Part shown: positions 17,157 through 44,697 of the stretch, piece by piece
How the letters are laid out: each line of letters opens with the position of its first letter
Numbering within the stretch: position 1 is the first letter of the stretch
Assembly: GCA_946183365.1 (NCBI GenBank)
Contig: CAMHAH010000002.1
Span: 1 to 64,000 of the forward strand
Reading direction: 5' to 3'
From: an uncultured Clostridia bacterium
GTDB lineage: Bacteria > Bacillota > Clostridia > Oscillospirales > Acutalibacteraceae
Length of the DNA stretch: 64,000 nt
Position numbers and translations under genes: made by a program
The notes under the pieces: generated by a model
What the model saw: only the letters and a program-made list of their open reading frames with translations
Database searches by the model: none
What the model was told of the DNA's origin: nothing

Positions 17157-18548
17157 ATGTTTTTTCAAAAGCGCTCCGCTGTGAGCTTTGACGGTTATCT
17201 GAGAAAAAACGTCAAAGACGCGGTAAACGCCTCTGATGCAAATATACCTGAGAGAATACTTCAGGATGAAAGATTTGAAGGGATAACTCCCTTTGAAAAC
17301 AAGATCTGGCTCTCAAGTCCCACCATGCACGGCGACGAGCAGAAATGGGTCGATGAAGCTATTCAGACCAACTGGGTCAGCACCGTAGGTGCGAATATCA
17401 ACGAGATAGAGCATAAAGTAGCAGAGATGGTAGGCTGCAAGTACGCTGTAGCCCTCTCAGCGGGTACAGCGGCTCTGCATCTCGCCGTCAAGCTCTGTGC
17501 AGAGAAGCTGTACGGTCAGCCCGGCGCGGGTCACGGCTCTCTCGAGGGCAAAAAGGTATTCGCCTCGGATATGACCTTCGACGCTACCGTAAACCCGATC
17601 GCATATGAGGGCGGCGAGGCCGTATTCATCGATACGGAGTACGACACATGGAACATGGACCCGAAGGCGCTCGAAAAGGCGTTTGAGATCTATCCCGATG
17701 TAAGGCTGATAGTGGTGGCGCATCTTTACGGCACACCCGGAAAGATCGACGAGATCAAGGCTATCGCGGACAAGCATAACGCTTTGATCGTCGAGGACGC
17801 CGCCGAGTCTTTTTGCGCTACATACAAGGGCGCTCAGACAGGCCGCTTCGGCGACGTCGGCGTCCTTTCGTGGAACGGTAATAAGATAATCACCGGCAGC
17901 AGCGGCGGTATGCTGCTGACCGATAACGAGGAATGGGCGAACAAAGCCCGCAAGTGGTCTACTCAGAGTCGTGAGGACGCCGCTTGGTATCAGCATGAGG
18001 AGATCGGCTATAACTACCGTATGAGCAATATCGTTGCCGGCGTAGTAAGAGGCCAGCTCCCATATGCAAAAGAGCATTGCGCTCAGAAGAAGGCTATCTA
18101 CGAGAGATATAAAGAAGGTCTCAAGGATCTGCCCGTACAGATGAATCCGTATGACGGCAAGAACTCTGAGCCTAACTACTGGCTCTCTTGTCTGATGATC
18201 GATAAAGAGGCTATGGCTCCCACTGTAAGAGGCGAGAAAGAGGCCATGTATCAGACCAAGCCCGGCAAGAGCAGTCCTACAGAGATACTCGAGGCTTTTG
18301 CGGCGTTCAACGCTGAGGGCAGACCTATCTGGAAGCCCATGCATATGCAGCCTATATACAGAACCAATCCGTTTATAACAGCTACCGGCAGCGGAAGAGC
18401 GAGAAGCAACGCTTATATAGCTGAGAGCGGCATGGTAGACGTCGGCGCCGATATCTTTAACAGAGGCGTGTGTCTGCCCAGCGATAACAAGATGACGCCT
18501 GAGCAGCAGGATATCATCATCGATATCATACACAGGTGCTTCAGATAA
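17157..18548 (+). CDS. DegT/DnrJ/EryC1/StrS-family aminotransferase (amino-sugar biosynthesis)
   Basis: YAVALSAGTAALHLAVKLC..., LIVVAHLYGTPGKIDEIKAIADKHNALIVEDAAESFCATYKGAQTGRFGDVGVLSWNGNKIITGSSGGML (PLP Lys context). Confidence 0.93.
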   Translation: MFFQKRSAVSFDGYLRKNVKDAVNASDANIPERILQDERFEGITPFENKIWLSSPTMHGDEQKWVDEAIQTNWVSTVGANINEIEHKVAEMVGCKYAVALSAGTAALHLAVKLCAEKLYGQPGAGHGSLEGKKVFASDMTFDATVNPIAYEGGEAVFIDTEYDTWNMDPKALEKAFEIYPDVRLIVVAHLYGTPGKIDEIKAIADKHNALIVEDAAESFCATYKGAQTGRFGDVGVLSWNGNKIITGSSGGMLLTDNEEWANKARKWSTQSREDAAWYQHEEIGYNYRMSNIVAGVVRGQLPYAKEHCAQKKAIYERYKEGLKDLPVQMNPYDGKNSEPNYWLSCLMIDKEAMAPTVRGEKEAMYQTKPGKSSPTEILEAFAAFNAEGRPIWKPMHMQPIYRTNPFITATGSGRARSNAYIAESGMVDVGADIFNRGVCLPSDNKMTPEQQDIIIDIIHRCFR

Positions 18549-18586
18549 TCGCTGACGATAATCTAAACAAAACGACGGGTGAACAA

Positions 18587-19276
18587 ATGTATAAGGTAAA
18601 GCATAGTTTTTATCAAAAATATGTTAAACGGTTGTTTGATATTGTCCTGTGCTCGCTGGCTTTGATCATTCTTTCGCCGATCTATCTTATCATCGTGATC
18701 GGCATTAAGGTATCAAGTCCGGGCACGGTGCTTTATTACTCCGACAGAGCGGGGCTGAACGGCAAGCCGTTCCATTTTTATAAATTCAGGTCGATGCATC
18801 AGACAGACAATGATAAAAAGATGTTTGTCGCGGATCAGGACCGCGTATTCCCCTTCGGTAAGGTGATGCGCCGCTTAAAGCTTGACGAACTGCCCCAGCT
18901 GATAAACGTTATCAAGGGTGATATGAGCATCGTCGGCCCGAGACCTATGACGGTCGAAGGCGTAAAGAAGATATACGCCGGTAAATATGAGCCGATCAAA
19001 GCTGTCAGACCGGGGCTCACAAGCATCGCGAGCCTTTACGATTATCTGGTCGGCGATACGTATACCGACAACGATGAGTATATGAGGGTCGTGCTGCCGG
19101 TAAAGAAGGAGCTCGAGCTGCTGTATGTTGAGAAGCAGTCGTTCTTATATGACGCTCAGCTGGTTTGGCGCACGATAGTTGCCATTATACAGGTAGCCTT
19201 CGGCAAGAAGGACTTCAAAGAGATGAAGGAGCTCAGTGAGATCGACCCCGAGATACGGCGATTAACAGTTAAGTGA
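18587..19276 (+). CDS. Undecaprenyl-phosphate sugar phosphotransferase (bacterial sugar transferase, PglC/EpsL-like)
   Basis: YVKRLFDIVLCSLALIILSPIYLIIVIGIKVSSPGTVLYYSDRAGLNGKPFHFYKFRSMH...KLDELPQLINVIKGDMSIVGPRP. Confidence 0.95.
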   Translation: MYKVKHSFYQKYVKRLFDIVLCSLALIILSPIYLIIVIGIKVSSPGTVLYYSDRAGLNGKPFHFYKFRSMHQTDNDKKMFVADQDRVFPFGKVMRRLKLDELPQLINVIKGDMSIVGPRPMTVEGVKKIYAGKYEPIKAVRPGLTSIASLYDYLVGDTYTDNDEYMRVVLPVKKELELLYVEKQSFLYDAQLVWRTIVAIIQVAFGKKDFKEMKELSEIDPEIRRLTVK

Positions 19277-19292
19277 TTTGAAGGTTGTATAT

Positions 19293-20483: not shown

Positions 20484-21074
20484 ATGAGCAAAGAATATAA
20501 CGATAATATCGTGATAATAGAAAAACCCGATAATATAAGCTATGAACAGATCCAGTCGCTGCTTCATTCGGCTCACGGAAGCAATAAGGAAAAGGGCATG
20601 AAATACGGCGTTGCAGATCAGTCCGTTGAAGAGCTCGAGAAAGAGTTGAGCAGAAACACGATTTGCTATGTCGCTATGGACGGAGAAAAGATGGTTGGAA
20701 CAATGTCCTTCAGATATGCCCGTAAACGCAAAGCGTTTTTGCATATAAACAGCATCTATATGCAGCTGCTCGGGGTATCACCCGACTGTAAAGGGCATCA
20801 TATCGCCGACAGGTTGTTTGACAGAGGTATTAAGGACGCTGAGGAAAAGGGCTATAAGATCTTTTACGGCTTTCCCGCAGAGGATAACTTGATCATTCAC
20901 CATATGTATTTAAAGCGCGGCTTTGTTAAGGCGAGTTATACCAAGTATCCGAGAAATAATTTCTTTTCGGTAGGATTTATCAGAACGCCTTATAAATTGG
21001 TAAACAAAGTATTAGCTTCACGGTATGAAGGAATAAGAAAGAAAGTCCGCGCCGAGCATAATCTCGATGATTAG
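20484..21074 (+). CDS. GNAT-family N-acetyltransferase
   Basis: INSIYMQLLGVSPDCKGHHIADRLFDRGIKDAEEKGYKIFYGFPAEDNLIIHHMYLKRGF. Confidence 0.85.
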   Translation: MSKEYNDNIVIIEKPDNISYEQIQSLLHSAHGSNKEKGMKYGVADQSVEELEKELSRNTICYVAMDGEKMVGTMSFRYARKRKAFLHINSIYMQLLGVSPDCKGHHIADRLFDRGIKDAEEKGYKIFYGFPAEDNLIIHHMYLKRGFVKASYTKYPRNNFFSVGFIRTPYKLVNKVLASRYEGIRKKVRAEHNLDD

Positions 21075-22427: not shown

Positions 22428-23114
22428 ATGAAGATTTTAGTATTCGCGCCCCATCCCGACGATGAGATTCTGGGATGCGGAGGAACTATGGCGAGATATA
22501 TCGCTCAGGGAGCCGAGGTCACGGTATGTATCGTGACCAGCCCTAAGCCTCCGGTATATAACAATACAAAAGCCGTTGAGAACGGCTGGCCGCACATGAT
22601 ATATCCTCAGGCAAAGGCGGCGCATGAGCTGATGGGGATAAAGGAAACGGTCTATCTGCAGTTCCCCTGTGTCCTGCTCGAGAATGAGCCGCGTCATATT
22701 GTGAACGGCAAGATAGGCGAGCTGATCCAGAGGGTCGAACCCGATATCGTGTTCATCCCGCATTTCGGCGATATGCAGAAGGATCACGCTATCGTAGCCG
22801 AGGCGGTCATGGTAGCGGTAAGACCTAAATATAAGCACGTTCCGAGGTATGTTTATTCATATGAGTGCCTCTCGGAGACCGAGTGGAACATACCTCACGC
22901 TTCAAATATGTTTATCCCCAATACCTTTGTTGATATAACCGACTATCTGCAAAAGAAGCTCGACGCTATGTCGTGCTTTACATCTCAGTTAGGGGATTTC
23001 CCCGATCCGCGCTCGCTTGAGGCGGTCGAGGCTCTGGCTAAGCTCAGAGGTTCAACATCAGGCTTCAAGGCGGCTGAGGCGTTCGCGCTTATACGCGAGT
23101 ACAGGGGGATGTAA
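22428..23114 (+). CDS. PIG-L family deacetylase
   Basis: MKILVFAPHPDDEILGCGGTMARYIAQGAEVTVCIVT; AHPDDE-type motif. Confidence 0.92.
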   Translation: MKILVFAPHPDDEILGCGGTMARYIAQGAEVTVCIVTSPKPPVYNNTKAVENGWPHMIYPQAKAAHELMGIKETVYLQFPCVLLENEPRHIVNGKIGELIQRVEPDIVFIPHFGDMQKDHAIVAEAVMVAVRPKYKHVPRYVYSYECLSETEWNIPHASNMFIPNTFVDITDYLQKKLDAMSCFTSQLGDFPDPRSLEAVEALAKLRGSTSGFKAAEAFALIREYRGM

Positions 23115-23115
23115 G

Positions 23116-23763
23116 ATGAAAAACATTGTTTTGTACGGCGCGAGCGGCTTCGGAAGAGAGGTCGCGCATATAATAGAGCGCATCAATAAAGTCAGCCCTA
23201 CATATAACCTGCTCGGATTTCTCGACGACGGCGACGGCTTTGATGAAAGTACAGATATCAACGGATATCCGTGGCTCGGTAAGGGCGACTGGATACTTGA
23301 GCATAAGGACGACTGCGTTTGTACCTGCACCATAGGTTTCCCTAAAGTCAAGGCGGCGATACAGCGCAGACTTACCGAACAGGGAGTAAGGTTTGAGACT
23401 CTTATTACTCCGGGAGCTGTTATCGGTCCCTATACTGTTATCGGCAGTGGCTGCGTTATTTACGGAAAGGTCGGAATCTCGGTAAACTGCGTCATCGGCG
23501 ACGGAGTTCTGCTCAATACGGGAGTCCTGCTGGGACATGACGACGTTATCGGTGACTATACCACCATCATGACAGGCACCGCTGTAAGCGGATGCTGTAA
23601 GATAGGCTCGCAGGTAAATATAGGCGGCCACGCATATATCATACCCGGCAAGAAGGTCGGAGATAACGCCACGATCGCCGCGGGAAGCGTGGTATTCACC
23701 AATGTTAAAGCCGGCTCTACAGTACTCGGCAATCCCGCAAAAAGAATGAAGGAATTGGAGTAA
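23116..23763 (+). CDS. NeuD/PglD-like sugar O/N-acyltransferase (left-handed beta helix)
   Basis: KNIVLYGASGFGREVAHIIERIN... plus hexapeptide repeats VIGPYTVIGSGCVIYGKVGISVNCVIGDGVLLNTG. Confidence 0.9.
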   Translation: MKNIVLYGASGFGREVAHIIERINKVSPTYNLLGFLDDGDGFDESTDINGYPWLGKGDWILEHKDDCVCTCTIGFPKVKAAIQRRLTEQGVRFETLITPGAVIGPYTVIGSGCVIYGKVGISVNCVIGDGVLLNTGVLLGHDDVIGDYTTIMTGTAVSGCCKIGSQVNIGGHAYIIPGKKVGDNATIAAGSVVFTNVKAGSTVLGNPAKRMKELE

Positions 23764-23768
23764 ATAGA

Positions 23769-24701
23769 ATGAAAACAGCATTTTTGTTTTCAGGTCAGGG
23801 CGCTCAGTACCCCGGCATGATGAAGGAAATATATGACACCGAGCCCGCCGCTAAAGAGGTTTTTGACGCGGCTGAAAAGGCTCTCGGCAGAGATATCTCT
23901 GCCTTGTGTTTTGAGGGAACTCAGGAGGAGTTGAACCTTACCCATAACACTCAGCCCTGTGTGCTTGCCGCCGATCTGGCTGCTGCTGCGGCTTTGAGGG
24001 CGCACGGGATAGAGCCCGACGCTGTCGCCGGCTTCTCGCTCGGAGAATACGCCGCGCTTACCTTTGCGGGAGCTATCCCTATGGACGAGGTGTTCCCGAT
24101 GATCCAGCTCAGAGCCGACGCCATGCAGGAGGCTGTTCCCGCGGGCGAGGGCGCTATGGCAGCGTTCATCGGCGCTCCCGCCGATGAGGTCGAAGAGCTC
24201 TGCGCGCAGGTAAAGGGCGGTTATGTTATACCGGCGAACTACAACAGCCCCGTACAGACGGTCATATCCGGCGAGGCCGCGGCTGTAGACGAGGCTATCG
24301 CTCTCGGAGTTGAAAAGGGTCTCAGATGTATGAAGCTGGCTGTCAGCGCTCCGTTCCACTGCGCTATGATGAAGCCCGCCGCAGAAAAGCTCGGCGAGCT
24401 TTTTGAGACCAAGAGTTTTTCTGCCCCCGAGATACCCGTTTATATGAATGTGAACGGCGAGCCCGCAGGCTCTGCGTCAGACATCCCCGGGCTGCTCGTC
24501 AAGCAGGCCATGAGTTCCGTTCAATGGGTCAAAACATTAGAGAATATGCGCGACAGCGGTATAGACACCTTTATCGAGTGCGGTCCCGGAAAAACCCTGT
24601 CGGGTCTTGTGAAAAAGACCTTGAAGGGTGTAAAGATCTGCCGCGTTGAGAATATAAAAACACTCGAGAGCACCTTAGAGGCTCTGAGTGAAGAGCAATA
24701 A
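23769..24701 (+). CDS. fabD: ACP S-malonyltransferase
   Basis: MKTAFLFSGQGAQYPGMMKEIYD; GFSLGEYAALTFAGAI (GxSxG); VSAPFHCAMMKPA. Confidence 0.93.
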   Translation: MKTAFLFSGQGAQYPGMMKEIYDTEPAAKEVFDAAEKALGRDISALCFEGTQEELNLTHNTQPCVLAADLAAAAALRAHGIEPDAVAGFSLGEYAALTFAGAIPMDEVFPMIQLRADAMQEAVPAGEGAMAAFIGAPADEVEELCAQVKGGYVIPANYNSPVQTVISGEAAAVDEAIALGVEKGLRCMKLAVSAPFHCAMMKPAAEKLGELFETKSFSAPEIPVYMNVNGEPAGSASDIPGLLVKQAMSSVQWVKTLENMRDSGIDTFIECGPGKTLSGLVKKTLKGVKICRVENIKTLESTLEALSEEQ

Positions 24702-25321
24702 TGAAAATAAAAGCGTACAGCTCTGATCTTCTCTCATCCAATATGTATGTCATCTCTGAAAACGGTCACGCGGTAGTGATCGACCCGTTCAGAGATATCA
24801 CAAAGGGAGAGGGGCTTACAATAGACCTGATGATGGTCACGCATGAGCATTATGACCACATCTCGGGCGTGAACGCATGGAAAGAGGCTTATAACGCGCC
24901 TCTCTTGTGCAGCGAGGCGTGCGCCGCCAACCTCGGCGATACGGTCAAGAACCAGTCAAGGCACTTCGATGTTTTCTGTGAGCTTCAGTCGTGGATAAAG
25001 CAGGACAAGCCCGTAGATACCGAGCCTGATTATACTTGTAAGGCCGATATGACCTTTAATGATAAAACAGAATTTGAATGGCAGGGTCATGTGTTCAGAT
25101 TATATGAGATACCCGGTCACTCTCAGGGCAGTATCGGTATATATCTGGACGATGAGAATTTCTTCTCGGGCGACAGCCTGCTTGAAGGAAAAGAGACCGA
25201 GCTCAGACTTCCGGGAGGAAGCCGAAAGCAATGGAAGGAGCTCGGCGAGCCGCGTATCAAGGCGGTTCCCCCGGGCACGGTGATATTCCCCGGACATTTC
25301 AACAGCTTTTTGAAGGAGTAG
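24701..25321 (+). CDS. MBL-fold metallo-hydrolase (candidate thioesterase)
   Basis: MVTHEHYDHISGVNAW (HxHxDH), IPGHSQGSIGIYLDDENFFSGDSLL, FPGHF; start overlaps fabD stop (taatg). Confidence 0.85.
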   Translation: MKIKAYSSDLLSSNMYVISENGHAVVIDPFRDITKGEGLTIDLMMVTHEHYDHISGVNAWKEAYNAPLLCSEACAANLGDTVKNQSRHFDVFCELQSWIKQDKPVDTEPDYTCKADMTFNDKTEFEWQGHVFRLYEIPGHSQGSIGIYLDDENFFSGDSLLEGKETELRLPGGSRKQWKELGEPRIKAVPPGTVIFPGHFNSFLKE

Positions 25322-25326
25322 ATACT

Positions 25327-26415
25327 ATGTCGTTTTTTAAAAGCAACGGTATCGGTATCGCAGGTATCGCCTGCGCCGTACCTAAGAATAACGTTACGGT
25401 AGACAGCTTCACGCCTGTATTCGGTGAGGAGGTCACCTCTAAATTCACTGCCGGTACCGGTATCAAGGCTATGTATAAGGCTCTGCCCGAGCAGACCGCG
25501 AGCGATCTGGGTGTAGCGGCGGCTGAGAACCTTCTCTCAAAGCTCGATATAGATAAGAACGAGATCGGCGCTATGCTGATGGTCACACAGTCTCCCGATT
25601 ACCGCAGACCCTCAAGCGCGAGCATTGTTCAAAAGCGCCTCGGATTGCCGATAAGCTGCTCTTGTATGGAGATTAACTTAGGCTGCTCCGGTTTTATCTA
25701 CGGTATACAGACCGCGATGTCGCTGATGAACAGCTCTGATATGAAATACGCTCTGCTCGTTATGGGCGAGACCGCCTCAAAGCTGGTTGACCCCAAGGAT
25801 AAGTCGATCGTTATGATGTACGGCGACGCAGGCGCGGCTGTCCTGCTCGAAAGACAGGCTGACGCGAAGACGACAACTCTGCTACGCTCGGACGGCGACC
25901 GCTTCAAGGCGATCGTACTGCCCGCGGGAGGCTTCCGTGATATGACGCCCACCCACGAGAGGTTCATGTGCAGCGACGGTATCGAGCGCTCTCTGTATGA
26001 CATCTTCATGGACGGCACCTCGGTATTCTCTTTCTCGATCACAGACGTGCCTCAGGCTCTCAAGGATTATCTTGAAAAGACAGAAACTACCGCCGAGGAT
26101 TACGACGCGTTCGTATTCCATCAGGCTAACCAGTTCATCATAAAACAGCTGATAAGAAAGATGAAACTGCCCAAAGACAGCGTGCCGATCTCTCTCGACC
26201 GTTTCGGCAACACCGGCGGCATTTCCATACCGCTTACGCTCTGCGACGCTTACGGCGACAAGAACGAGGGCAAGAAGAACGCGCTGATGTGCGGCTTCGG
26301 TATAGGATTATCGTGGGGCGTCACAAACGCCGTTATAGATTTCGACAAGGTATTCCCGATAATCGAGACCGACGATTATTATAAAGAGGGTAAAATAACC
26401 CCTGAGATGCTTTGA
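25327..26415 (+). CDS. 3-oxoacyl-ACP synthase III family protein (KAS III), paralog 1
   Basis: Cys-His-Asn triad contexts: NLGCSGFIYGIQTA, FHQANQFIIKQL, FGNTGGISIPL. Confidence 0.92.
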   Translation: MSFFKSNGIGIAGIACAVPKNNVTVDSFTPVFGEEVTSKFTAGTGIKAMYKALPEQTASDLGVAAAENLLSKLDIDKNEIGAMLMVTQSPDYRRPSSASIVQKRLGLPISCSCMEINLGCSGFIYGIQTAMSLMNSSDMKYALLVMGETASKLVDPKDKSIVMMYGDAGAAVLLERQADAKTTTLLRSDGDRFKAIVLPAGGFRDMTPTHERFMCSDGIERSLYDIFMDGTSVFSFSITDVPQALKDYLEKTETTAEDYDAFVFHQANQFIIKQLIRKMKLPKDSVPISLDRFGNTGGISIPLTLCDAYGDKNEGKKNALMCGFGIGLSWGVTNAVIDFDKVFPIIETDDYYKEGKITPEML

Positions 26416-26428
26416 GAAGGAGACGACT

Positions 26429-27190
26429 ATGATCAATCCAATGGATCTGTCCGGAAAAAGGATTCTTGTCACGGGAGCTACGGGAGGTATCGGTTCCGAG
26501 ACTGCCGTTCAGCTCAGCAGACTCGGAGCAAACGTAGTTATCTGCGGAAGGAATGAAAAAAAACTTCAGGGCGTTTTTGAATGTCTCGAGGGAGAAGGTC
26601 ACGCAAGATATGTATTTGATCTGAATGATATCGACTCCATCGAGGGCTTTATCAAGCAGATAAATGATGAACAAGGTGTTTTTAACGGAGTAGCGTTCTG
26701 CGCGGGAATTGCTCCGATGAGACCTTTGAAAATGACAAAAAGAAAAAACATGATCGAGGTTATGGATGCAAACCTGTTCTCATTTATTGAGATTGTCAGA
26801 TGCATCACTAAGAAAAACGGATTTGCCGATGAGGGAAGCATAGTGGCGATCTCATCTACGGCAAGCATACAGGGAAAACAGTCCAAGGTTGCCTACAGCG
26901 CATCAAAGGCAGCTCTAGACGGCGCAATACGCTGTCTGGTTTGCGATCTGAAAAAGAAAAAGATTCGTGTTAATTCAATAACACCCTGTTGGGTCAATAC
27001 AAAGATGTATCAGGGCTATATAGACAGATATCCCGATACGTTTGAAGTTCAGGAGATAAATGAAAAACAGTACATGGGTGTGACGGAGCCGATCGAGGTT
27101 GCCAATACTGCGGCGTTTCTGTTGAGTGATGCCGCAAAAACCATAACAGGCACAACCGTATTGATCGACGGCGGAATGTCGCAGGGATAA
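26429..27190 (+). CDS. SDR family oxidoreductase (3-oxoacyl-ACP reductase-like), paralog 1
   Basis: VTGATGGIGSETAVQLSRLGANVVICGR..., VAYSASKAALDGAIR, TGTTVLIDGGMSQG. Confidence 0.92.
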   Translation: MINPMDLSGKRILVTGATGGIGSETAVQLSRLGANVVICGRNEKKLQGVFECLEGEGHARYVFDLNDIDSIEGFIKQINDEQGVFNGVAFCAGIAPMRPLKMTKRKNMIEVMDANLFSFIEIVRCITKKNGFADEGSIVAISSTASIQGKQSKVAYSASKAALDGAIRCLVCDLKKKKIRVNSITPCWVNTKMYQGYIDRYPDTFEVQEINEKQYMGVTEPIEVANTAAFLLSDAAKTITGTTVLIDGGMSQG

Positions 27191-27201
27191 AGGAGGATAA
27201 T

Positions 27202-28287
27202 ATGTACAGTAATATTGATAATGTCAAGGTGATAGGTATAGCGGCGGCCGTCTCTGAAAAATGGGACTCCGTTATGGAGGTCACAAACGAAAGCCAAGAG
27301 GTTTTGAAGCGTTTTGTAAAGAAAACCGGCGTAGAGGGTCGTTATTCTGCATCCCTTAAGCAGACTACTTCGGATTTCTGCTGCGCGGCTGCAGAAAGGT
27401 TGCTGACAGAAAAGAACATCAACAGAGAGGATATCGGGGTCCTTGTGTTTGTAACACAGATGCCCGATTACCGCATTCCGGCCACAGCCTGTGTTTTGCA
27501 GATGAGACTGGGTTTGAGCAATAACTGTATTGCATTTGATGTGAACTTAGGCTGTTCGGGTTTCGTATACGGGCTGAACATCCTTTCGAGTTTGATGAGT
27601 ACCTCCTCAGCCAGATACGGACTGCTGCTTGCGGGCGATACCTCCGCAAGAGAGTTCAGCAATAAGCAAAAAGAGAAAATAGGACATACAAGTGAGCTGC
27701 TCTTCGGTGACTCCGGGACTGCAACTCTCTTAGAGCGCAGCGAAGGAGACAGCCTCTCGTTCATGTCCAATACCAAAGGCAGCGGATTTAGAGCAATCAT
27801 TGCTCCTTACGGTTGGTATCGCAATCCCGAATCTCCCGACGGCAGAATACACTATTCCGTAATGGATGATATCGAGGTATTCAACTTTGCTACAAATGAG
27901 GCTCCCGAGCAGATCAGTAGCTATATGGATAAAAAAGGAACTACATCTGCTGATTACGATTGTCTTGTGCTTCATCAGGCAAATCTGATGATAATGAAGC
28001 GCATTGCTAAAAAAACCGGTTTCTCCGAAGATAAAATGCTCGTTTCAATGAATAAATTTGCAAACACATCGTCTTCTTCGATCCCCCTGACGCTGGTATA
28101 TACCTATGGAGATTCAGAAGAAAACAAGTCGATAAACGCTCTGTGCTGCGGTTTCGGCGTTGGCCTCTCTTGGGCGACAGTCGGGCTTTCCGTAAACAAA
28201 AAAGATATTCTGCCGCTTGTCCATACAAGTGAGTATTTCAAAGACGGATATAATTTAGACGATTTGGAGGAAAACAATAATGACTGA
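27202..28287 (+). CDS. 3-oxoacyl-ACP synthase III family protein (KAS III), paralog 2
   Basis: NLGCSGFVYGLNILSSLM, LHQANLMIMKRIAKK, FANTSSSSIPL. Confidence 0.92.
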   Translation: MYSNIDNVKVIGIAAAVSEKWDSVMEVTNESQEVLKRFVKKTGVEGRYSASLKQTTSDFCCAAAERLLTEKNINREDIGVLVFVTQMPDYRIPATACVLQMRLGLSNNCIAFDVNLGCSGFVYGLNILSSLMSTSSARYGLLLAGDTSAREFSNKQKEKIGHTSELLFGDSGTATLLERSEGDSLSFMSNTKGSGFRAIIAPYGWYRNPESPDGRIHYSVMDDIEVFNFATNEAPEQISSYMDKKGTTSADYDCLVLHQANLMIMKRIAKKTGFSEDKMLVSMNKFANTSSSSIPLTLVYTYGDSEENKSINALCCGFGVGLSWATVGLSVNKKDILPLVHTSEYFKDGYNLDDLEENNND

Positions 28288-28498
28288 GCAGGAAAAGATC
28301 GCACTGATCGAAGAAACACTCGACCTTGACGAGGGCACACTTACGGCTGATACCGTACTTGACGATGTAGACGAGTACGACTCGATGGCTAAGCTCTCGC
28401 TTATCGTAATGATGGACGACGAGTTCGGCGTAAAGCTGACAGGCGACGTAATCAAGGGCTTTAAGACAGTAGGCGATATCCTCGCCGTTATGAATTGA
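28280..28498 (+). CDS. Acyl carrier protein, copy 1
   Basis: EYDSMAKLSLIVMMDDEFGVKL phosphopantetheine site; overlaps stop of KAS III gene. Confidence 0.92.
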   Translation: MTEQEKIALIEETLDLDEGTLTADTVLDDVDEYDSMAKLSLIVMMDDEFGVKLTGDVIKGFKTVGDILAVMN

Positions 28499-28541
28499 CC
28501 GGCGCCTGCAATATTCAGGTTCCGAAACAGGTGAAACAATA

Positions 28542-29306
28542 ATGTATAATCTTGTAGATCTAACAGATAAAAAAATATTGGTAGTGGGAGCCTCATCGGG
28601 TATCGGCAAACAGACTGCCGTTACTCTCAGCCGGCTGGGCGCCAAGGTGATACTTGCCGCACGCAGAGAGGACAAGCTCATGGAAACGCTGGCTCTGCTT
28701 GAGGGAGAGGGCCACAGCGTGAAGAGATTTGACGTGCAGGATACCGACGGCATAGAAAAGGTCGTAAATGATATAGTGGCCGAATCCGGCGCTCTGGATG
28801 GAATGGTTTATTCTGCGGGTCTCGGGACAGCGCTCCCACTTCAGCAAACCAAGCCCGAGAAAATCAATCAGGTATTTGATGTTAATTTCTTCGGCTTTAT
28901 AGAGACGGTAAGGCAGCTTTGCAGACGCGGCAGGTTTAATCCCGGTATGCGTATCGTCGGTATTTCGTCTGTCGCTTCGATACGCGGAGATAAATCAAAA
29001 ACTGCTTATTCTGCGTCTAAATCTGCGATGGACTCGGCTGTGCGCTGTATAGCCCGCGAGGTTGCCGACAAGGGTATATGCATAAACAGCGTTGCTCCGT
29101 CTATGACGGCCACAGAGCTTTACACACATTATCTCGATAAATACGGAGAGGATAGCGAAACCAACAAGGATCTGCTCAAAAGGCAGTATCTCGGTATTGC
29201 CGAAACCTCCGATATTGCAAATGCCGTGGCATTTTTACTTAGCCCCGCCGCGAGATTCATAACGGGAATAACTCTTCCTGTTGACGGCGGACTGACAACT
29301 TGCTGA
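28542..29306 (+). CDS. SDR family oxidoreductase (3-oxoacyl-ACP reductase-like), paralog 2
   Basis: VVGASSGIGKQTAVTLSRLGAKVILAARR, TAYSASKSAMDSAVR, ITGITLPVDGGLTTC. Confidence 0.92.
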   Translation: MYNLVDLTDKKILVVGASSGIGKQTAVTLSRLGAKVILAARREDKLMETLALLEGEGHSVKRFDVQDTDGIEKVVNDIVAESGALDGMVYSAGLGTALPLQQTKPEKINQVFDVNFFGFIETVRQLCRRGRFNPGMRIVGISSVASIRGDKSKTAYSASKSAMDSAVRCIAREVADKGICINSVAPSMTATELYTHYLDKYGEDSETNKDLLKRQYLGIAETSDIANAVAFLLSPAARFITGITLPVDGGLTTC

Positions 29307-29346
29307 GCATTTGATTCAATGATATGAATAGAAAGGAAGTATAATT

Positions 29347-29565
29347 ATGACAGAAAAGGAAAAAATCGCACTGATCGAAGAGACACTCGATCTTGATGAG
29401 GGCACACTGACAGCGGACACCGTACTTGACGACGTAGACGAGTATGACTCGATGGCTAAGCTCTCACTGATAGTAATGATGGACGACGAGTTTGGCAAGA
29501 AGCTGACAGGCGACGTCATCAAGGGCTTCAAGACCGTAGGCGATATCCTCGCCGTGATGGAATAA
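29347..29565 (+). CDS. Acyl carrier protein, copy 2
   Basis: 72 aa, differs from copy 1 at only a few residues; DSM serine. Confidence 0.92.
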   Translation: MTEKEKIALIEETLDLDEGTLTADTVLDDVDEYDSMAKLSLIVMMDDEFGKKLTGDVIKGFKTVGDILAVME

Positions 29566-29584
29566 TATTTGGAGGTAAAAGACA

Positions 29585-29803
29585 ATGACAGAAAAGGAAA
29601 AGATCGCACTGATCGAAGAGACACTCGATCTCGACGAGGGCACACTCACAGCCGACACCGTACTTGGGGATGTAGACGAGTATGACTCGATGGCTAAGCT
29701 CTCACTGATAGTGATGATGGACGACGAGTTTGGCAAGAAGCTGACCGGAGATGTTATCAAGGGCTTCAAGACCGTAGGCGATATCCTCGCCGTGATGGAA
29801 TGA
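29585..29803 (+). CDS. Acyl carrier protein, copy 3
   Basis: 72 aa; one substitution (D28G) versus copy 2. Confidence 0.92.
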   Translation: MTEKEKIALIEETLDLDEGTLTADTVLGDVDEYDSMAKLSLIVMMDDEFGKKLTGDVIKGFKTVGDILAVME

Positions 29804-29817
29804 TCGAGGGAATAACG

Positions 29818-30060
29818 ATGACTAACTTAGAAAAGTATAACAAAGCATTCATCGATACCTTCGGCGTAAGCGAGGACGCACTCGGTGAGAATTTTACATT
29901 CAAGGATGTGCCCGTATGGGATTCGGTAGCGCATCTTTCTCTTATATCCGAGCTTGAGGACAGCTTTGATGTGCTGTTTGACGCTGAGGATATACTTCAC
30001 TACGGCTCGTATCTCAACGGTATAGAAATACTCAAGAGATACGGCGTTGAGTTTGACTGA
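29818..30060 (+). CDS. Divergent acyl carrier protein, copy 4
   Basis: MTNLEKYNKAFIDTFGVSEDALGENFTFKDVPVWDSVAHLSLISELEDSFDVLFDAEDI; DSV serine. Confidence 0.85.
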   Translation: MTNLEKYNKAFIDTFGVSEDALGENFTFKDVPVWDSVAHLSLISELEDSFDVLFDAEDILHYGSYLNGIEILKRYGVEFD

Positions 30061-33646: not shown

Positions 33647-33683
33647 GTCAAAACTCTGTTTTGATGTATGGGTGTTAATAAAT

Positions 33684-36053: not shown

Positions 36054-37610
36054 ATGGCAAAATCAAGAACGACTAAAGCGACATTGAATATTGCGACTTC
36101 AGCGATCTATGAAGTCGCCGCGATGGTGTGCGCGCTGATATTACCGCGTTTGATTCTGTCGCATTTCGGCTCTGCATATAACGGTATAGTTTCTTCTGTC
36201 TCACAGTTCCTCACGCTTATCTCGCTTTTAACGCTGGGCGTGACCGCTTCTACAAGAGTAGCGTTATATCAATCTCTCGCCGCTAAGGATATTCGAAAGA
36301 CCAGCGCTATCGTACGCGCTACCAATAACTATATGCGCAAGGTCGGAATCGTACTGCTGATATATATCCTTGCTATCGCTTTGATATATCCTTTGGTAGT
36401 ACATACGGGCTTTGATTATTTTGACATATTCATTCTGATACTGATAATCGGCGCCAGCGCCTTTGCCGAGTTTTTCTTCGGAGTAACATATCGTACCTTC
36501 CTGCTTGCCGATCAGAGCGTATATATTTCCAATATCTTCACGACTATCTCTGTCATATTGAATACGGTGCTCTCTGTAATACTGATAAATATGGGCTTCA
36601 GTATTCAAATAGTAAAGCTGGGCAGCGCGGCGGTATTTGTGCTCCGACCGATCATGCAGTATATATATGTACATAAAAAGTATAAGCTGATAAAGAATAT
36701 CGAGCCTGACAAGAGCGCGCTTAATAAGCGCGGCGACGCTATGGCTCACGCGCTCGCGAATATCGTCCATGACCATACCGATATTATAGTCCTGACCATA
36801 TTTACCGACGTCAAGACGGTATCGGTATATACCGTGTATAATCTGGTCATGAACGCGCTCAAAAAGATACAGTCCATAATGACGACCGGTACCGAGCCGA
36901 TATTCGGCGATATGTGGGCAAAGGGCGAAAAAACCAAGATCAAGAATTTTCTCGGTTTCTATGAGTTCGCAATATACTCGTTCGCGTCTATAGTTTTCTC
37001 AATAGCCATGGTCATGCTGCTGCCGTTCATTGCTCTGTATACCAAGGGTGTACACGACGTAGAGTATATACTGCCGGTATATGCAGTGGTCATAACGATG
37101 GCGTTCGCTTTCCAGTCTATCAGGACACCGTATTTGTGTCTGGTACAGGGTGTCGGTCATTACAAAGAAACAAAGGCTGCCGCTATCATTGAGGCTGCCA
37201 TGAATATAGTGATATCAGTTGTTCTGGTACAGTTCATCGGTATAGTCGGCGTTGCGGTGGGTACATTCGTCGCCAATGTATACCGTTCATATCAGTACGC
37301 GTTTTACATAGATAAGAATATCGTCAAGAGAGGTAAAAGAGTATTCATATTAAAGTCGATATGGGCTTTGTTCAATATGGCGCTGATATGTATTCCCGCT
37401 GAGCTGGTATTACAAAACATCGTGATCAACAGTTGGCTGAAGTGGATCGGAGTAGCGGTTATCGTAAGTATGTACGCTATCGTCGTATGGTTGATCTCGT
37501 CGCTGATATTCTACCGCAAGGACATGATAGTCGCCTTGAAGCGAGGTAAAGACATCATGCAAAAGCGTTTCTTAAAGCGCAAAAGAAAAAGACCTGAGGT
37601 AAGATCATAA
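36054..37610 (+). CDS. Polysaccharide flippase (Wzx/MATE-like oligosaccharide flippase)
   Basis: About 12-14 TM helices; ALILPRLILSHFGSAYNGIVSSVSQFLTLISLLTLGVTASTRVALYQSLA. Confidence 0.88.
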   Translation: MAKSRTTKATLNIATSAIYEVAAMVCALILPRLILSHFGSAYNGIVSSVSQFLTLISLLTLGVTASTRVALYQSLAAKDIRKTSAIVRATNNYMRKVGIVLLIYILAIALIYPLVVHTGFDYFDIFILILIIGASAFAEFFFGVTYRTFLLADQSVYISNIFTTISVILNTVLSVILINMGFSIQIVKLGSAAVFVLRPIMQYIYVHKKYKLIKNIEPDKSALNKRGDAMAHALANIVHDHTDIIVLTIFTDVKTVSVYTVYNLVMNALKKIQSIMTTGTEPIFGDMWAKGEKTKIKNFLGFYEFAIYSFASIVFSIAMVMLLPFIALYTKGVHDVEYILPVYAVVITMAFAFQSIRTPYLCLVQGVGHYKETKAAAIIEAAMNIVISVVLVQFIGIVGVAVGTFVANVYRSYQYAFYIDKNIVKRGKRVFILKSIWALFNMALICIPAELVLQNIVINSWLKWIGVAVIVSMYAIVVWLISSLIFYRKDMIVALKRGKDIMQKRFLKRKRKRPEVRS

Positions 37611-39160
37611 TGGATAATATTTGGAAAGAAAAAACCGAAAAGCTGAATGAAAGACGACTGTCGGCGCGTGAGGGCGGCGGCAAGGCGAGGATCGACAAGC
37701 AGCATGAAAAAGGCAAGCTGACCGCTCGTGAGAGGCTTGAAGCGCTGTTTGACGACAATACCTTTGTCGAAGTGAACGACCTCATAGCCTCGCGCTGCTC
37801 AGATTTCGGCATGGATAAAAAGAAGCGCCCCGGCGACGGAGTAGTTACCGGCTACGGATATATCCACGGCAGGCTGGCGTATGCCGCTTCTCAGGATTTC
37901 ACCGTAGGCGGCGGCTCTCTCGGAGAGGCTCATGCTATGAAGATATGCCGCGTCATGGATATGGCGCTTGAGATGAAGGCGCCGTTCATATCTGTCAACG
38001 ACAGCGGCGGCGCTCGAATAGAAGAGGGCATCGACAGCCTCGCGGGATATGCCGATATCTTTTATCGCAATACCATAGCGTCGGGCGTTATCCCTCAGAT
38101 ATCGGTCATACTCGGACCGTGTGCCGGCGGAGCCTGTTACTCGCCGGCTATTTGTGATTATATATTTATGACAGAAGAAAACAGCCAGATGTATATCACC
38201 GGACCCTCGGTGGTAAAGTCTGTTACCGGTGAGGTCATCACCGCCGCGGAGCTTGGCGGCGCATCGGTACACGCGGGTGTATCGGGTGTGGCTCACTTTG
38301 TATATCCCGATGATCTTTCATGTCTCAACGGCGTGAGAAGGCTGCTGGGTTATCTGCCTCAAAGCAATGAAGATGAGATATTGACGGTACCCGGAAGATC
38401 TATAGATCGCTGCTCGGAGCTACCCGATATCGTGCCTGCCGACTCTAAAAAGGGCTATGATGTGAGAGACGTCATTGCTACCTTCGTAGATGAAGGCTCA
38501 TTCATGGAGGTACAGGCGGCTTTCGCTCAGAACATAGTTGTAGGCTTTTCGCGGATCGAGGGCAAGACCGTGGGTATAGTAGCGAACCAGAGCAACTATA
38601 TGGCGGGCTCGCTTGAGATAAACGCTTCTGATAAGGGAGCGCGCTTCATACGCTTCTGTGACTGCTTTGGAATACCCCTGCTCACTTTGGTTGACGTACC
38701 GGCGTTCCTGCCCGGCAGTCAGCAGGAGCACGGCGGTATCATACGTCACGGCGCAAAGATGCTGTACGCGTACTCAGAGGCTACCGTACCTAAGATATCG
38801 GTCATTATGCGCAAGGCTTACGGCGGAGCGTATATCGCGATGAACAGCAAGGGCATCGGCGCCGATACGGTATTCGCTTGGCCTATCGCCGAGATAGCGG
38901 TAATGGGCGCTTCGGGCGCTGTCGCGATCATCGGCAGAAGAGCGATCGACGCCGCTGAGGATCCCTCGGCTAAGCGCGAGGAGCTAATAAATGAATATAA
39001 TGAAAAGTTCATGAACCCGTATATAGCCGCCGAGCACGGCTATGTCGACGAGGTCATCCTGCCTGAAGAAACAAAAATTAGGGTCGTATCCGCTTTGAGG
39101 ATGCTTGAAAACAAAAAGCAGCAAAGACCCTATAAAAAGCACGGTAATATTCCGCTGTAA
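37610..39160 (+). CDS. Biotin-dependent carboxyltransferase, acyl-CoA (MmdA/PccB/12S transcarboxylase-like)
   Basis: ERLEALFDDNTFVEVND...SQDFTVGGGSLGEAHAMKICRVMDMALEMKAPFISVNDSGGARIEEG...AYGGAYIAMNSKGIGAD. Confidence 0.93.
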   Translation: MDNIWKEKTEKLNERRLSAREGGGKARIDKQHEKGKLTARERLEALFDDNTFVEVNDLIASRCSDFGMDKKKRPGDGVVTGYGYIHGRLAYAASQDFTVGGGSLGEAHAMKICRVMDMALEMKAPFISVNDSGGARIEEGIDSLAGYADIFYRNTIASGVIPQISVILGPCAGGACYSPAICDYIFMTEENSQMYITGPSVVKSVTGEVITAAELGGASVHAGVSGVAHFVYPDDLSCLNGVRRLLGYLPQSNEDEILTVPGRSIDRCSELPDIVPADSKKGYDVRDVIATFVDEGSFMEVQAAFAQNIVVGFSRIEGKTVGIVANQSNYMAGSLEINASDKGARFIRFCDCFGIPLLTLVDVPAFLPGSQQEHGGIIRHGAKMLYAYSEATVPKISVIMRKAYGGAYIAMNSKGIGADTVFAWPIAEIAVMGASGAVAIIGRRAIDAAEDPSAKREELINEYNEKFMNPYIAAEHGYVDEVILPEETKIRVVSALRMLENKKQQRPYKKHGNIPL

Positions 39161-39355: not shown

Positions 39356-39733
39356 ATGAGTAAATACAGAATAACCCTGAACGGAGAAGTATATGAGATG
39401 GAGGTCGAGCTGATCGAAGAAGGCTCTGCCCCGATAAAGACCGAAGCTAAGCCCGCTGTACGCGATACAGAGCGTCCCGCGGCGCAGAAAGCTCCCGCAC
39501 AGGCTGATAACACTTCCGCCGACGGCGCTGTAGTCAGCCCCATGCCCGGCACGGTCGTCCAGCTCATGGCGGCTCAGGGCGATAAGGTCAGCAAAGGCCA
39601 GCCTATTCTGGTGCTTGAGGCTATGAAAATGGAAAATGAGATAACAGCCGCTAAAGACGGCGTGCTGTCTGAGCTGCGCGTTGCCGAGGGACAGACGGTC
39701 GCGGGCGGCGAGATACTATTTATAATCGGCTGA
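39356..39733 (+). CDS. Biotin carboxyl carrier protein (1.3S transcarboxylase-like)
   Basis: VVSPMPGTVVQLMAAQGDKVSKGQPILVLEAMKMENEITA; biotin-lysine motif EAMKMEN; Ala/Pro-rich linker. Confidence 0.94.
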   Translation: MSKYRITLNGEVYEMEVELIEEGSAPIKTEAKPAVRDTERPAAQKAPAQADNTSADGAVVSPMPGTVVQLMAAQGDKVSKGQPILVLEAMKMENEITAAKDGVLSELRVAEGQTVAGGEILFIIG

Positions 39734-39748
39734 TAAGGCGGTAGATAT

Positions 39749-41161
39749 ATGGAAAACAAGCTGAATTTTCCGGCGCGAAAGCTGTATATAACCGATACCA
39801 TCCTGCGTGACGCCCATCAGTCGCAGGCTGCTACGCGTATGCGCCTTGAGGATATGCTGCCTGCCTGTGAGGCTCTCAATGAGGTGGGCTACTGGTCGCT
39901 CGAGTGTTGGGGCGGCGCTACCTTTGACGCCTGTATGCGCTTCCTTGGTGAGGATCCGTGGGACAGGCTCAGAGCGCTCAGAAGAGCTCTGCCGGATACA
40001 AAATTACAGATGCTCCTGAGAGGTCAGAACCTGCTCGGTTACCGTCATTACGCCGATGACGTTGTAGATGAATTCTGCAAAAAATCCATAGAGAACGGTA
40101 TCGATATCGTCAGGATATTCGACGCACTCAACGACGTCCGCAATATGAGAGCGGCTATGACGAGCGTGAAGAAGTACGGCGCTCACTGTGAGGCGGCTAT
40201 CAGCTATACCACCAGCCCCGTTCACAGCGACGATTACTTTGTCGAACTCGCAGCAAAGCTCGAAGATATGGGAGCTGATACGATCTGTATCAAGGATATG
40301 GCTAATATCCTGCTTCCGGATAACGCATATACACTTATTAAGAAGATCAAAGAAAAGGTGAGCGTGCCTGTTCACCTTCATACACATAATACGACCGGCA
40401 CCGGCGCTATGGTATATATGGCGGCGGCTATGGCAGGCGTAGATATCATCGACTGCGCTCTGTCGCCGTTTGCCGACGGTACCGCTCAGCCGGCGACCGA
40501 GTCTATGGTAGCGGCGTTCAGGGGCACACCCCGTGATACGGGTCTGGATCTCAAGAAGCTGAATAAGGCGGCAAAGCATTTCAGAAAGGTCGCTCAGCGC
40601 CTGCAGGATGAGGGCACGCTCAACCCAAAGGTGCTGCGTACCGACCCAAACACCCTGCTCTATCAAGTGCCGGGCGGTATGCTGTCGAACCTTATGTCAC
40701 AGCTGCATGAGGCAAACGCGGATGATAAGTTTGATGAGGTGCTCAAAGAGGTCCCCAGAGTACGAGAGGACTTCGGCTATCCTCCGCTGGTCACGCCCAC
40801 AAGCCAGATCGTCGGCACACAGGCTGTGCTGAATGTCCTGTTCGGCGAGCGTTACGGCACCTTTACCAAAGAGTCAAAGGGTTTGCTCAGAGGAGAATAC
40901 GGTTCTCTGCCCGGTAAGGTCAATGAGGATATCCGCAAAAAGGCTATCGGCGATGACGAGGTCATCCAATGCCGCCCCGCCGACCTGCTCGAGCCTGAGC
41001 TGGATAAGGACAGAGAGAGCTACAGCGATATCGCGAGGAGCGATGAGGATGTGCTCAGCTGTGTGCTCTTCCCACAGGTAGCCCCTGAGTTTTTGAAGAA
41101 AAAGTACGCGCAGCCCGAAGAAGAAAAGGTCACAGAGATAAATGTTGTCTGGGACAGATAA
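39749..41161 (+). CDS. Oxaloacetate decarboxylase alpha / pyruvate carboxylase subunit B / 5S transcarboxylase-like protein
   Basis: LYITDTILRDAHQSQAATRMRLEDMLPACEALNEVGYWSLECWGGATFDACMRFLGEDPWDRLR...DTICIKDMANILLP...VHLHTHNTTG; ends without a biotin domain. Confidence 0.93.
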   Translation: MENKLNFPARKLYITDTILRDAHQSQAATRMRLEDMLPACEALNEVGYWSLECWGGATFDACMRFLGEDPWDRLRALRRALPDTKLQMLLRGQNLLGYRHYADDVVDEFCKKSIENGIDIVRIFDALNDVRNMRAAMTSVKKYGAHCEAAISYTTSPVHSDDYFVELAAKLEDMGADTICIKDMANILLPDNAYTLIKKIKEKVSVPVHLHTHNTTGTGAMVYMAAAMAGVDIIDCALSPFADGTAQPATESMVAAFRGTPRDTGLDLKKLNKAAKHFRKVAQRLQDEGTLNPKVLRTDPNTLLYQVPGGMLSNLMSQLHEANADDKFDEVLKEVPRVREDFGYPPLVTPTSQIVGTQAVLNVLFGERYGTFTKESKGLLRGEYGSLPGKVNEDIRKKAIGDDEVIQCRPADLLEPELDKDRESYSDIARSDEDVLSCVLFPQVAPEFLKKKYAQPEEEKVTEINVVWDR

Positions 41162-41170
41162 GAGGTAAGC

Positions 41171-41935
41171 ATGAGCGAGATCAATAACAACCTGTTAGAG
41201 GATAAAGTAGTCATCGTCACCGGAGCCGGCAGAGGCATCGGTCAGGCTATGGCTGAGCTTTTCGCCGGGAACGGCGCTATAGTTTATGCCAACGACGTTC
41301 GCGAAGGCGCCGTAGAGGAATGGTGCGGCAGCGTCAACGAGAGCGCCTCGGGCGAGGTGCGTCCGCTTTACTTTGATATAACGAACGATCAAGAGGTCAA
41401 GACTGCCGTTATGCAGGTCAAGAAGGCTTGCGGTCATATAGACGGTCTGGTTAACAACGCCGGAGTAGAGTTCAACGAGCTCATCGGTATGATCGACCGC
41501 AAGCATATGCAGACGATGTTCTCTGTCAATGTTTTCGGCACAGTCAATATGCTTGAGATAGTCAGCCGTGTTATGGGTCGTCAGGAGAACGGCGGCTCGA
41601 TAGTGAACATAGCTTCGATGACGGCATTAAGAGGCAACCGCGGCCAGATGATCTATTCGGCTACCAAGGGAGCCGTGATCTCTCTGACAAAGTCCGCGGC
41701 AAAGGAGCTCGCAGATAAAAAGATCAGGGTAAACGCGATCGCGCCGGGTCTTACAAACACCGCCATGATGCAGCAGGCTGACCCCGAAAAGCTTCAAAGC
41801 CGTATCAATAATATCTGTATGGGCAGGCTCGCCGAGCCCGAGGATATAGCGGGAGCCTGTATGTTCATGCTGTCCGACCTCTCAAAGTATGTGTCCGGTC
41901 AGATACTCGCGGTAGACGGCTGTACCATAATGTGA
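41171..41935 (+). CDS. SDR family oxidoreductase (FabG-like), paralog 3
   Basis: VTGAGRGIGQAMAELFAGNGAIVYANDVR, IYSATKGAVISLTKSAAKELADKKIRVNAIAPG, SGQILAVDGCTIM. Confidence 0.93.
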   Translation: MSEINNNLLEDKVVIVTGAGRGIGQAMAELFAGNGAIVYANDVREGAVEEWCGSVNESASGEVRPLYFDITNDQEVKTAVMQVKKACGHIDGLVNNAGVEFNELIGMIDRKHMQTMFSVNVFGTVNMLEIVSRVMGRQENGGSIVNIASMTALRGNRGQMIYSATKGAVISLTKSAAKELADKKIRVNAIAPGLTNTAMMQQADPEKLQSRINNICMGRLAEPEDIAGACMFMLSDLSKYVSGQILAVDGCTIM

Positions 41936-43225: not shown

Positions 43226-44626
43226 GTGTTTTTAGATTTAGATAAGCATAATCAAAACAAAACAGCGATAAAGGACGACTCGGGCTATGAGCTGAGTTAC
43301 CGCGACGTATGCGATACCGTCCGAGCCTTTGAACAGCTCAGCCTGCCCAGATGCGTAGTTTTCTGTATGTGTGAGAGCTGCGCGGGATCGCTCATTGGCT
43401 ATCTTGCCTTTGAAAACAATAAACAGGTTCCGCTCCTGCTGAGCGCAAAGCTTGACGGTGAACTGCGCTCGCGTCTTGAGAGCATCTATCAGCCTTCTTA
43501 CTACTGGGCTCCCGAGCAGATGACAGAAGAGCTCGGCGGAGAAAAAGTATACTCAGCCTACGGCTACGCGCTGACAAAGACGGCGCATGAGCCGTATGAG
43601 CTGAACGATAAGCTCTCTATGCTGCTCACTACCTCGGGCTCTACGGGCAGTCCCAAGCTCGTGCGCCATAAGTACGGCAACCTCGAGGCGAACGCCCGAA
43701 ATGTCGCAAAGGTATTCGAGTGGCGTGAAGATGAGAAGGGCATCTGCGACCTCCCGATGAACTACACCATGGGGCTGAACGTCATCAACAGCCATTTGGT
43801 CGTCGGCGCTTCGGTCCTGATGGTCAAGGCTAATCTGATGGATCCCGACTTCTGGAGCTTTATCAAAGAGAACGGCGGTACAAGCTTTTGCGGAGTACCG
43901 TTCAGCTATGAGATAATGCGCCGTATCGGCTTTGACAGGATGGACCTGCCCGAGCTGTATACCTTAGCCGAGGGCGGCGGAAAGCTGACCGATAAGATGT
44001 TCAAGTGGACAGCCGCTTACTGCAAGAATAACGGTAAACGCTTCTGCGCTACCTTCGGCACCAGCGAGACGAGCGCGCGCATGGCGTTCCTCGACCCGAA
44101 AATGGCTGAAGAAAAGACGGGCAGCATCGGCAAGGCTATCCCCGAGGGCGAGCTGTTCCTGATCGACGAGGCTCAGGGCGAGGACGGATGTTTGACCGGT
44201 GAGCTCGGCTACAGAGGTCCTAACGTTACCATGGGCTACGCTGTATGCAAAGAAGATCTTCTCAAGGACGATGAGTTCCTCGGTGAGTACCACACAGGCG
44301 ATATCGCTAAGCGTGACGCAGACGGATTTTACTATATAATCGGCCGCAAGGGCAGATTTTTGAAGCTGTTCGGCTTAAGGGTTAGCCTCGATGAGACCGA
44401 GCGTATCTTAAAAGCGCAGTATCCCGACGCCGACTGCGTATGTACGGGCGATGATAAGCGCATGAATATCTTTACCGTTGACGCTCAGATCAAGGATCGG
44501 ATAATACCGTTTATCAGCTCAAAGACCAATCTGCATAATTCAGCCTTCAGGGTATTTGTTGTTGATAAGATACCACGTAACGAGTACGGCAAGGTCAAAT
44601 TTGCCGAGCTTGAAAAGCTTATGTAA
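43226..44626 (+). CDS. AMP-binding acyl-activating enzyme (acyl-CoA synthetase/ligase superfamily)
   Basis: SMLLTTSGSTGSPKLVRHKYGNLEANARNVAKVF; CATFGTSETSARMAFLD; EYHTGDIAKRDADGFYYIIGRKGRFLKLFGLRVSLDETE. Confidence 0.9.
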   Translation: MFLDLDKHNQNKTAIKDDSGYELSYRDVCDTVRAFEQLSLPRCVVFCMCESCAGSLIGYLAFENNKQVPLLLSAKLDGELRSRLESIYQPSYYWAPEQMTEELGGEKVYSAYGYALTKTAHEPYELNDKLSMLLTTSGSTGSPKLVRHKYGNLEANARNVAKVFEWREDEKGICDLPMNYTMGLNVINSHLVVGASVLMVKANLMDPDFWSFIKENGGTSFCGVPFSYEIMRRIGFDRMDLPELYTLAEGGGKLTDKMFKWTAAYCKNNGKRFCATFGTSETSARMAFLDPKMAEEKTGSIGKAIPEGELFLIDEAQGEDGCLTGELGYRGPNVTMGYAVCKEDLLKDDEFLGEYHTGDIAKRDADGFYYIIGRKGRFLKLFGLRVSLDETERILKAQYPDADCVCTGDDKRMNIFTVDAQIKDRIIPFISSKTNLHNSAFRVFVVDKIPRNEYGKVKFAELEKLM

Positions 44627-44648
44627 AATAATAAATAGTATAATAATA

Positions 44649-44697
44649 CTGCCGCAGCGTTATCGATGAGATAACGCCGCGGCAGTTAGTTTTTTGT
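44649..44697 (+). terminator. Rho-independent terminator closing the EPS/acyl locus
   Basis: ctgccgcagcgttatc-gatg-agataacgccgcggcag followed by ttagtttttt. Confidence 0.75.

Follow-up and report, generated by a model that had tools for sequence, protein, structure and literature searches.

The 64,000-nucleotide stretch described here (positions 1 to 64,000 of contig CAMHAH010000002.1, assembly GCA_946183365.1, from an uncultured Clostridia bacterium of the Acutalibacteraceae), hereafter called the window, contains an exopolysaccharide (EPS) locus in which genes for acyl carrier protein (ACP) chemistry are embedded. The genes from 17157 to 44626 all lie on the plus strand with gaps of -13 to 192 bp, and by spacing and orientation this run probably forms a single operon; promoter-like matches were not enriched (33 versus 28.8 in shuffles). 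The acyl-ACP genes at 23116-30060, called by translation together with Pfam and NCBIfam scans, follow each other with gaps of -8 to 43 bp (Table 1). FabD, an MBL-fold hydrolase, two ketoacyl synthases of type III (KAS III), two short-chain dehydrogenases/reductases (SDRs) and four ACPs had been listed in a first, sequence-only reading, and all of them were found in place, on the plus strand and with intact motifs: Cys/His/Asn in both KAS copies, Ser/Tyr/Lys in the SDRs, DS in all four ACPs, GFSLG plus Arg in FabD and HxHxDH in the MBL enzyme. ACP1 to ACP3 are near copies of each other (86-94% DNA identity). The closest solved structure for the PglD/VioB-like protein at the start of the module is VioB (7txp, E 3.9e-25), and this protein is the probable enzyme for moving an acyl group onto a sugar.

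Table 1. Features of the EPS locus and its acyl-ACP module (positions refer to the window)
Feature	Position	Strand	Evidence and remarks
DegT/LegC-like aminotransferase (pyridoxal phosphate-dependent), amino-sugar candidate	17157..18548	+	TIGR04181 E 1.7e-88, below cut-off
Initiating polyprenyl-phosphate sugar-phosphate transferase	18536..19276	+	TIGR03025 E 3.9e-59, below cut-off
GNAT acyltransferase	20484..21074	+	PF00583
PIG-L-type sugar N-deacetylase	22428..23114	+	TIGR04001 E 2.9e-22, below cut-off; 1 bp before PglD
PglD/NeuD/VioB N-acyltransferase	23116..23763	+	TIGR03570 180 bits, above cut-off
FabD malonyl-CoA:ACP transacylase	23769..24701	+	TIGR00128 276 bits, above 260.9 cut-off
MBL-fold hydrolase	24701..25321	+	PF00753; HxHxDH
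KAS III no. 1 (KAS1 clade)	25327..26415	+	PF08541 82 bits
SDR1, FabG-like ketoreductase	26429..27190	+	FabG-type models, below their cut-offs
KAS III no. 2 (KAS2a clade)	27202..28287	+	PF08541 78 bits
ACP1	28280..28498	+	PF00550
SDR2, FabG-like ketoreductase	28542..29306	+	FabG-type models, below their cut-offs
ACP2	29347..29565	+	PF00550; 88% DNA identity to ACP1
ACP3	29585..29803	+	94% DNA identity to ACP2; genome search match
ACP4, divergent	29800..30060	+	single NCBIfam ACP match, E 4e-5; no Pfam match
Wzx-like flippase	36054..37610	+	named from sequence; overlaps 12S gene by 1 bp
12S/MmdA-type acyl-CoA carboxyltransferase	37610..39160	+	TIGR01117 784 bits, below cut-off; 1on3 12S E 7.7e-187
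Biotin carboxyl carrier protein (BCCP, 1.3S-like)	39356..39733	+	AMKM intact
5S/oxaloacetate carboxyltransferase subunit	39749..41161	+	NF006761 720.8 bits, above cut-off; 1rqb 5S E 6.9e-136
SDR3, FabG-like	41171..41935	+	accompanies 12S-BCCP-5S set and ligase
AMP-forming acyl ligase	43226..44626	+	TIGR03098 E 1.3e-37, below cut-off
Terminator-like 17-bp hairpin	44648..44686		between convergent genes; operon end

The remainder of the host genome (2.84 Mb, 98.5% complete) lacks much of the usual machinery for fatty-acid synthesis (FAS). In genome-wide domain searches the only FabH-type C-terminal domains fall in the window, and the window FabD is the sole malonyl-transferase-type (PF00698) protein. 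The same searches, whose controls were positive in most reference genomes, found no FabF/FabB (KAS I/II, PF00109), no FabZ/FabA dehydratase (PF07977) and no biotin carboxylase C-terminal domain (PF02785) in this genome. The absence of FabF and FabZ, noted at first for the window, thus extends to the whole genome, and the objection that the genes could be housekeeping FAS with FabF and FabZ encoded elsewhere falls with it. FabF loss in the host is plausible, because FabF was not found in 26 of 59 relatives (host genome counted), several of them at 99-100% completeness. On the same contig, 14.6-19.6 kb past the window (L040:14632-19621), lie genes for FakA, DegV (FakB-like) and PlsX, and after them an ACP match, an arrangement that fits uptake of exogenous fatty acids; judged by its gene content, the host appears unable to synthesise fatty acids. 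Another genome of the same genus (G002, contig C52) carries a large modular polyketide cluster, with about 15 ketosynthase domains in frames as long as 6648 aa.

FabD, FabH, FabG and ACP belong to type II (FAS II) families, and a degenerate FAS II remnant producing membrane fatty acids was therefore weighed. It is very improbable, given active-site motifs that are intact, genes that are embedded in an EPS run and the fatty-acid uptake suggested by FakA/DegV/PlsX. Both FAS II proper and a leftover of it were rejected, because the genome searches found FabH and FabD nowhere outside the window, while FabF, FabZ and biotin carboxylase were not found at all.

The three parts of a transcarboxylase, 12S, BCCP and 5S, lie together 7.5 kb downstream of the module in the same putative operon, with the biotin motif and the 5S motifs (IKDM, HxH) intact, in a genome without a detected biotin carboxylase. 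Neither this set, nor the second ligase/SDR part, nor the absence of biotin carboxylase had been picked up in the sequence-only reading. We infer that 12S, BCCP and 5S take the place of acetyl-CoA carboxylase (ACC) and convert acetyl-CoA into malonyl-CoA with oxaloacetate, a reaction that needs no ATP. The set is similar to the methylmalonyl-CoA:pyruvate transcarboxylase of Propionibacterium (12S, 1on3; 5S, 1rqb; 1.3S) in having three parts and no biotin carboxylase; unlike that enzyme, it is linked to FabD/KAS/ACP genes and its predicted acyl-CoA substrate is acetyl-CoA.

A gene for 12S (at least 51% identity) is located near KAS in at least 17 of 23 carriers, based on a whole-genome search and fetched stretches, and biotin carboxylase was not seen in 16 of these 23. 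Ten other carriers (G148/G104, G149, G153, G154, G155, G156, G160, G161, G165 and G167) show the order 12S-BCCP-5S as well; SDR3 usually comes next and, in stretches long enough to show it, the ligase. In G158 the 5S subunit is absent from the set, and in G167 the set lies beside ACP genes, its link to the KAS contig being putative. In the tree, the 12S proteins of full sets group together in a single clade (support 93/90), apart from the host's own copy on contig C19. Genes of the 12S type are also present in FAS-like operons, beside fabD in G168 and beside fabG/KAS/FabZ-like genes in G159. A FAS-like operon with genes for FabZ, FabD and a 12S-type carboxyltransferase encodes an 804-aa protein with two ketoacyl-synthase stretches (L084:1249-3663; PF00109 twice), and in another locus an AcpS-type phosphopantetheinyl transferase directly follows a lone 12S gene (L014:19943-20317). 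The company of FAS-type genes in G168 and G159 and of AcpS in L014 would fit a role of 12S in malonyl/ACP chemistry.

The homologues of the set are methylmalonyl-CoA enzymes, and a gene for the membrane (beta) subunit of Na+-pumping oxaloacetate decarboxylase (OAD) is present in the genome, its only copy lying on contig C1. The set might thus be a housekeeping transcarboxylase of propionate fermentation, or an oxaloacetate or methylmalonyl decarboxylase, with malonyl-CoA coming from elsewhere. We regard this as rather unlikely: the operon contains no OAD beta gene, a separate carboxyltransferase, BCCP and 5S set is available on contig C19, 12S proteins from EPS loci branch as a separate clade and are found together with the module, and the PF02785 search found no biotin carboxylase in the genome. 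The resemblance of 12S to propionyl-CoA/methylmalonyl-CoA enzymes would also suit a set making methylmalonyl-CoA from propionyl-CoA, which FabD would load to give 2-methyl-3-hydroxyacyl groups. This is improbable, since FabD passes the curated cut-off for malonyl transferases and carries a P-F-H motif, which is typical of malonyl-specific transferases.

Beyond the window, a scan of the genome_contigs collection with KAS1 as query, which loci devoid of KAS1 would escape, yielded 27 loci from Clostridia and Bacteroidota (one record being titled Chloroflexi and one Coriobacteriaceae). Most Clostridia loci have PglD, FabD, MBL, KAS, SDR, ACP and ACP4 in common; this core recurs in about 20 Clostridia loci other than the window, so the arrangement is not due to chance. 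In the Bacteroidota loci L026 and L029 a leaner ACP-KAS-SDR-KAS set is present, and FabD and the carboxyltransferase were not found in the fetched DNA. KAS1 relatives above E 1e-40 occur in only 5 of 148 relatives, three of which belong to the host's genus (one a 29% match), and the module is therefore patchy and probably mobile. In the KAS tree, KAS1 stands apart from two KAS2 clades: the window combines KAS1 with KAS2a, a 96% relative (L003) combines KAS1 with KAS2b, and all three kinds occur together in L008 and L011. The number of KAS and SDR genes per locus ranges from 1 to 3, suggesting a tunable acyl chain length, with one of each in 9 of 21 counted loci; both numbers are correlated (rho 0.69, n=21 loci) and SDRs never outnumber KAS.

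Taken together, we propose that the locus encodes a self-contained, non-dehydrating FAS-II-like acyl-ACP pathway with its own transcarboxylase, which would decorate an amino sugar of a Wzx/Wzy-type exopolysaccharide; judged from sequence comparisons, we give this a probability of roughly 0.68. The operon's 12S, BCCP and 5S would carboxylate acetyl-CoA at the expense of oxaloacetate, so that malonyl-CoA and pyruvate arise at no cost of ATP, and FabD would load the malonyl group onto ACP1-3. One KAS III would then join an acetyl starter to malonyl-ACP, with reduction by an SDR to 3-hydroxybutyryl-ACP, and the second KAS/SDR pair would extend this by one unit to 3,5-dihydroxyhexanoyl-ACP, the chain remaining hydroxylated as a dehydratase is absent. 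Finally, the PglD/VioB-like enzyme would attach the acyl chain to a nucleotide-linked amino sugar at its amino group. The MBL enzyme, possibly an ACP thioesterase or proofreading enzyme, would clear mis-loaded ACPs, and ACP4, SDR3 and the ligase may provide a second acyl starter.

It is highly likely that the locus produces a short hydroxylated acid destined for attachment to a sugar. The product for amino-sugar N-acylation would be a 3-hydroxyacyl group or, as the presence of two KAS makes probable, a 3,5-dihydroxyacyl group. KAS III enzymes normally use acyl-CoA starters, a preference in favor of a simpler outcome of the same module, in which the two KAS use different starters or work in separate lines, yielding one or two C4 3-hydroxyacyl groups. 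Likewise, the loci with one KAS and one SDR match the VioS/VioR 3-hydroxybutyryl module (PMC3927599). We hold this C4 outcome to be possible though unlikely: KAS1 and KAS2 form separate clades, some loci have three KAS, and the published locus with two KAS, a ketoreductase (KR), ACP and PglD serves a polysaccharide that bears a C6 3,5-dihydroxy group (PMC6519341).

Indeed, two known systems serve as models for the proposed pathway. In the viosamine island of Pseudomonas syringae, vioA/vioS/vioB/vioR/acp likewise encode an adjacent aminotransferase, KAS III, KR-type SDR, ACP and hexapeptide N-acyltransferase, serving the N-(3-hydroxybutyryl) group on a 4-amino sugar, and deletion of vioR leads to loss of the modified viosamine with this group (PMC3927599). 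Unlike the window, that island has one KAS and no FabD, MBL hydrolase, transcarboxylase or ligase of its own, and it decorates a flagellin glycan rather than a Wzx/Wzy EPS (PMC3927599). Closer in KAS number is wfpC-G of Flavobacterium psychrophilum, with two KAS, KR, ACP and a PglD homologue in a Wzx/Wzy locus; in the consulted part of that report, its authors predict that these genes synthesise the 3,5-dihydroxyhexanoyl R group observed by nuclear magnetic resonance, and the R-group genes of the O-polysaccharide differ between strains (PMC6519341). The same part does not mention FabD, MBL or a carboxyltransferase, and the organism, unlike the host of the window, belongs to the Bacteroidota (PMC6519341). 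Both likenesses are of gene content: the window has two KAS III copies with Cys-His-Asn, a KR-type SDR and ACP in the same run, and a member of the PglD/VioB family. The resemblance to wfpC-G leads to the C6 prediction, and with its two KAS a C6 dihydroxyacyl group is at least as indicated as 3-hydroxybutyryl. Of the sequence-only reading, whose version of the product corresponds to the C4 outcome, a short acyl-ACP module for polysaccharide decoration beside a VioB/PglD-type N-acyltransferase is supported. The qhbCB/gdr capsule module of Acinetobacter baumannii also serves a capsular amino sugar with an N-(3-hydroxybutanoyl) group, similar to the 3-hydroxyacyl amide proposed here, and the consulted part of that report names no KAS or ACP genes for the acyl group (PMC9676051).

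Several observations weigh against the proposed pathway. It does not account for ACP4, SDR3 and the ligase, and the near relative L003/G148 has two KAS and one SDR in its module, so that the pairing of one KAS with one SDR is not strict. The 12S protein resembles propionyl-CoA carboxylases (1vrg) to about the same degree, and its GGAYIAM motif has Ile as in 1vrg, which does not discriminate between acetyl and propionyl. The association of full sets versus lone 12S genes with a missing biotin carboxylase is a trend that does not reach significance (9/2 versus 2/4, p 0.11), and several carriers are metagenome-assembled genomes, making absences provisional. FAS genes often share one operon and one lost contig could thus remove several together, an objection weakened by complete congeners that also lack FabF.

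Other genes of the window accompany the module. In the same run, two related ATP-grasp ligases (19278-20483 and 21116-22306) flank the GNAT gene and might serve to link an amino acid or a comparable group to the polysaccharide. The gene at 33672-35957 encodes a polysaccharide pyruvyl-transferase-like protein with a Fe-S/F420-hydrogenase-like C-terminal part, and a second Fe-S/F420-hydrogenase-like protein is encoded at 42009-43184; genes like these two recur in many related loci. Further downstream (61641-63962) lies a CotH-like protein, whose C-terminal end reads as dockerin-like, as in cellulosomal ruminococci.

The designation of the module as an undescribed system was too strong, as KAS III/KR/ACP/PglD- or VioB-type modules are already known (PMC3927599, PMC6519341). 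What sets the window apart from these are the private FabD, the MBL enzyme, the carboxyltransferase set, ACP4, the ligase/SDR3 pair and a genome in which no other FAS/ACC parts were found. The literature searched held nothing directly relevant on KAS III in capsule loci or on fatty-acid auxotrophy in Ruminococcus, and no description of a natural ATP-independent route to malonyl-CoA, the latter being weak evidence. We see about even odds that, in gut Clostridia without FAS and ACC, the cell obtains malonyl-CoA only through the transcarboxylase of a polysaccharide operon, from oxaloacetate and without ATP, and uses it solely for polyhydroxyacyl decorations whose chain length varies via one to three shuffled KAS/SDR pairs. 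If true, malonyl chemistry would have been retained for surface decoration after the loss of fatty-acid synthesis, via a natural ATP-independent malonyl-CoA route. For rumen and gut Firmicutes it would also provide a testable genetic handle on acylated surface polysaccharides, whose acyl chain length could be predicted from the number of KAS/SDR genes.

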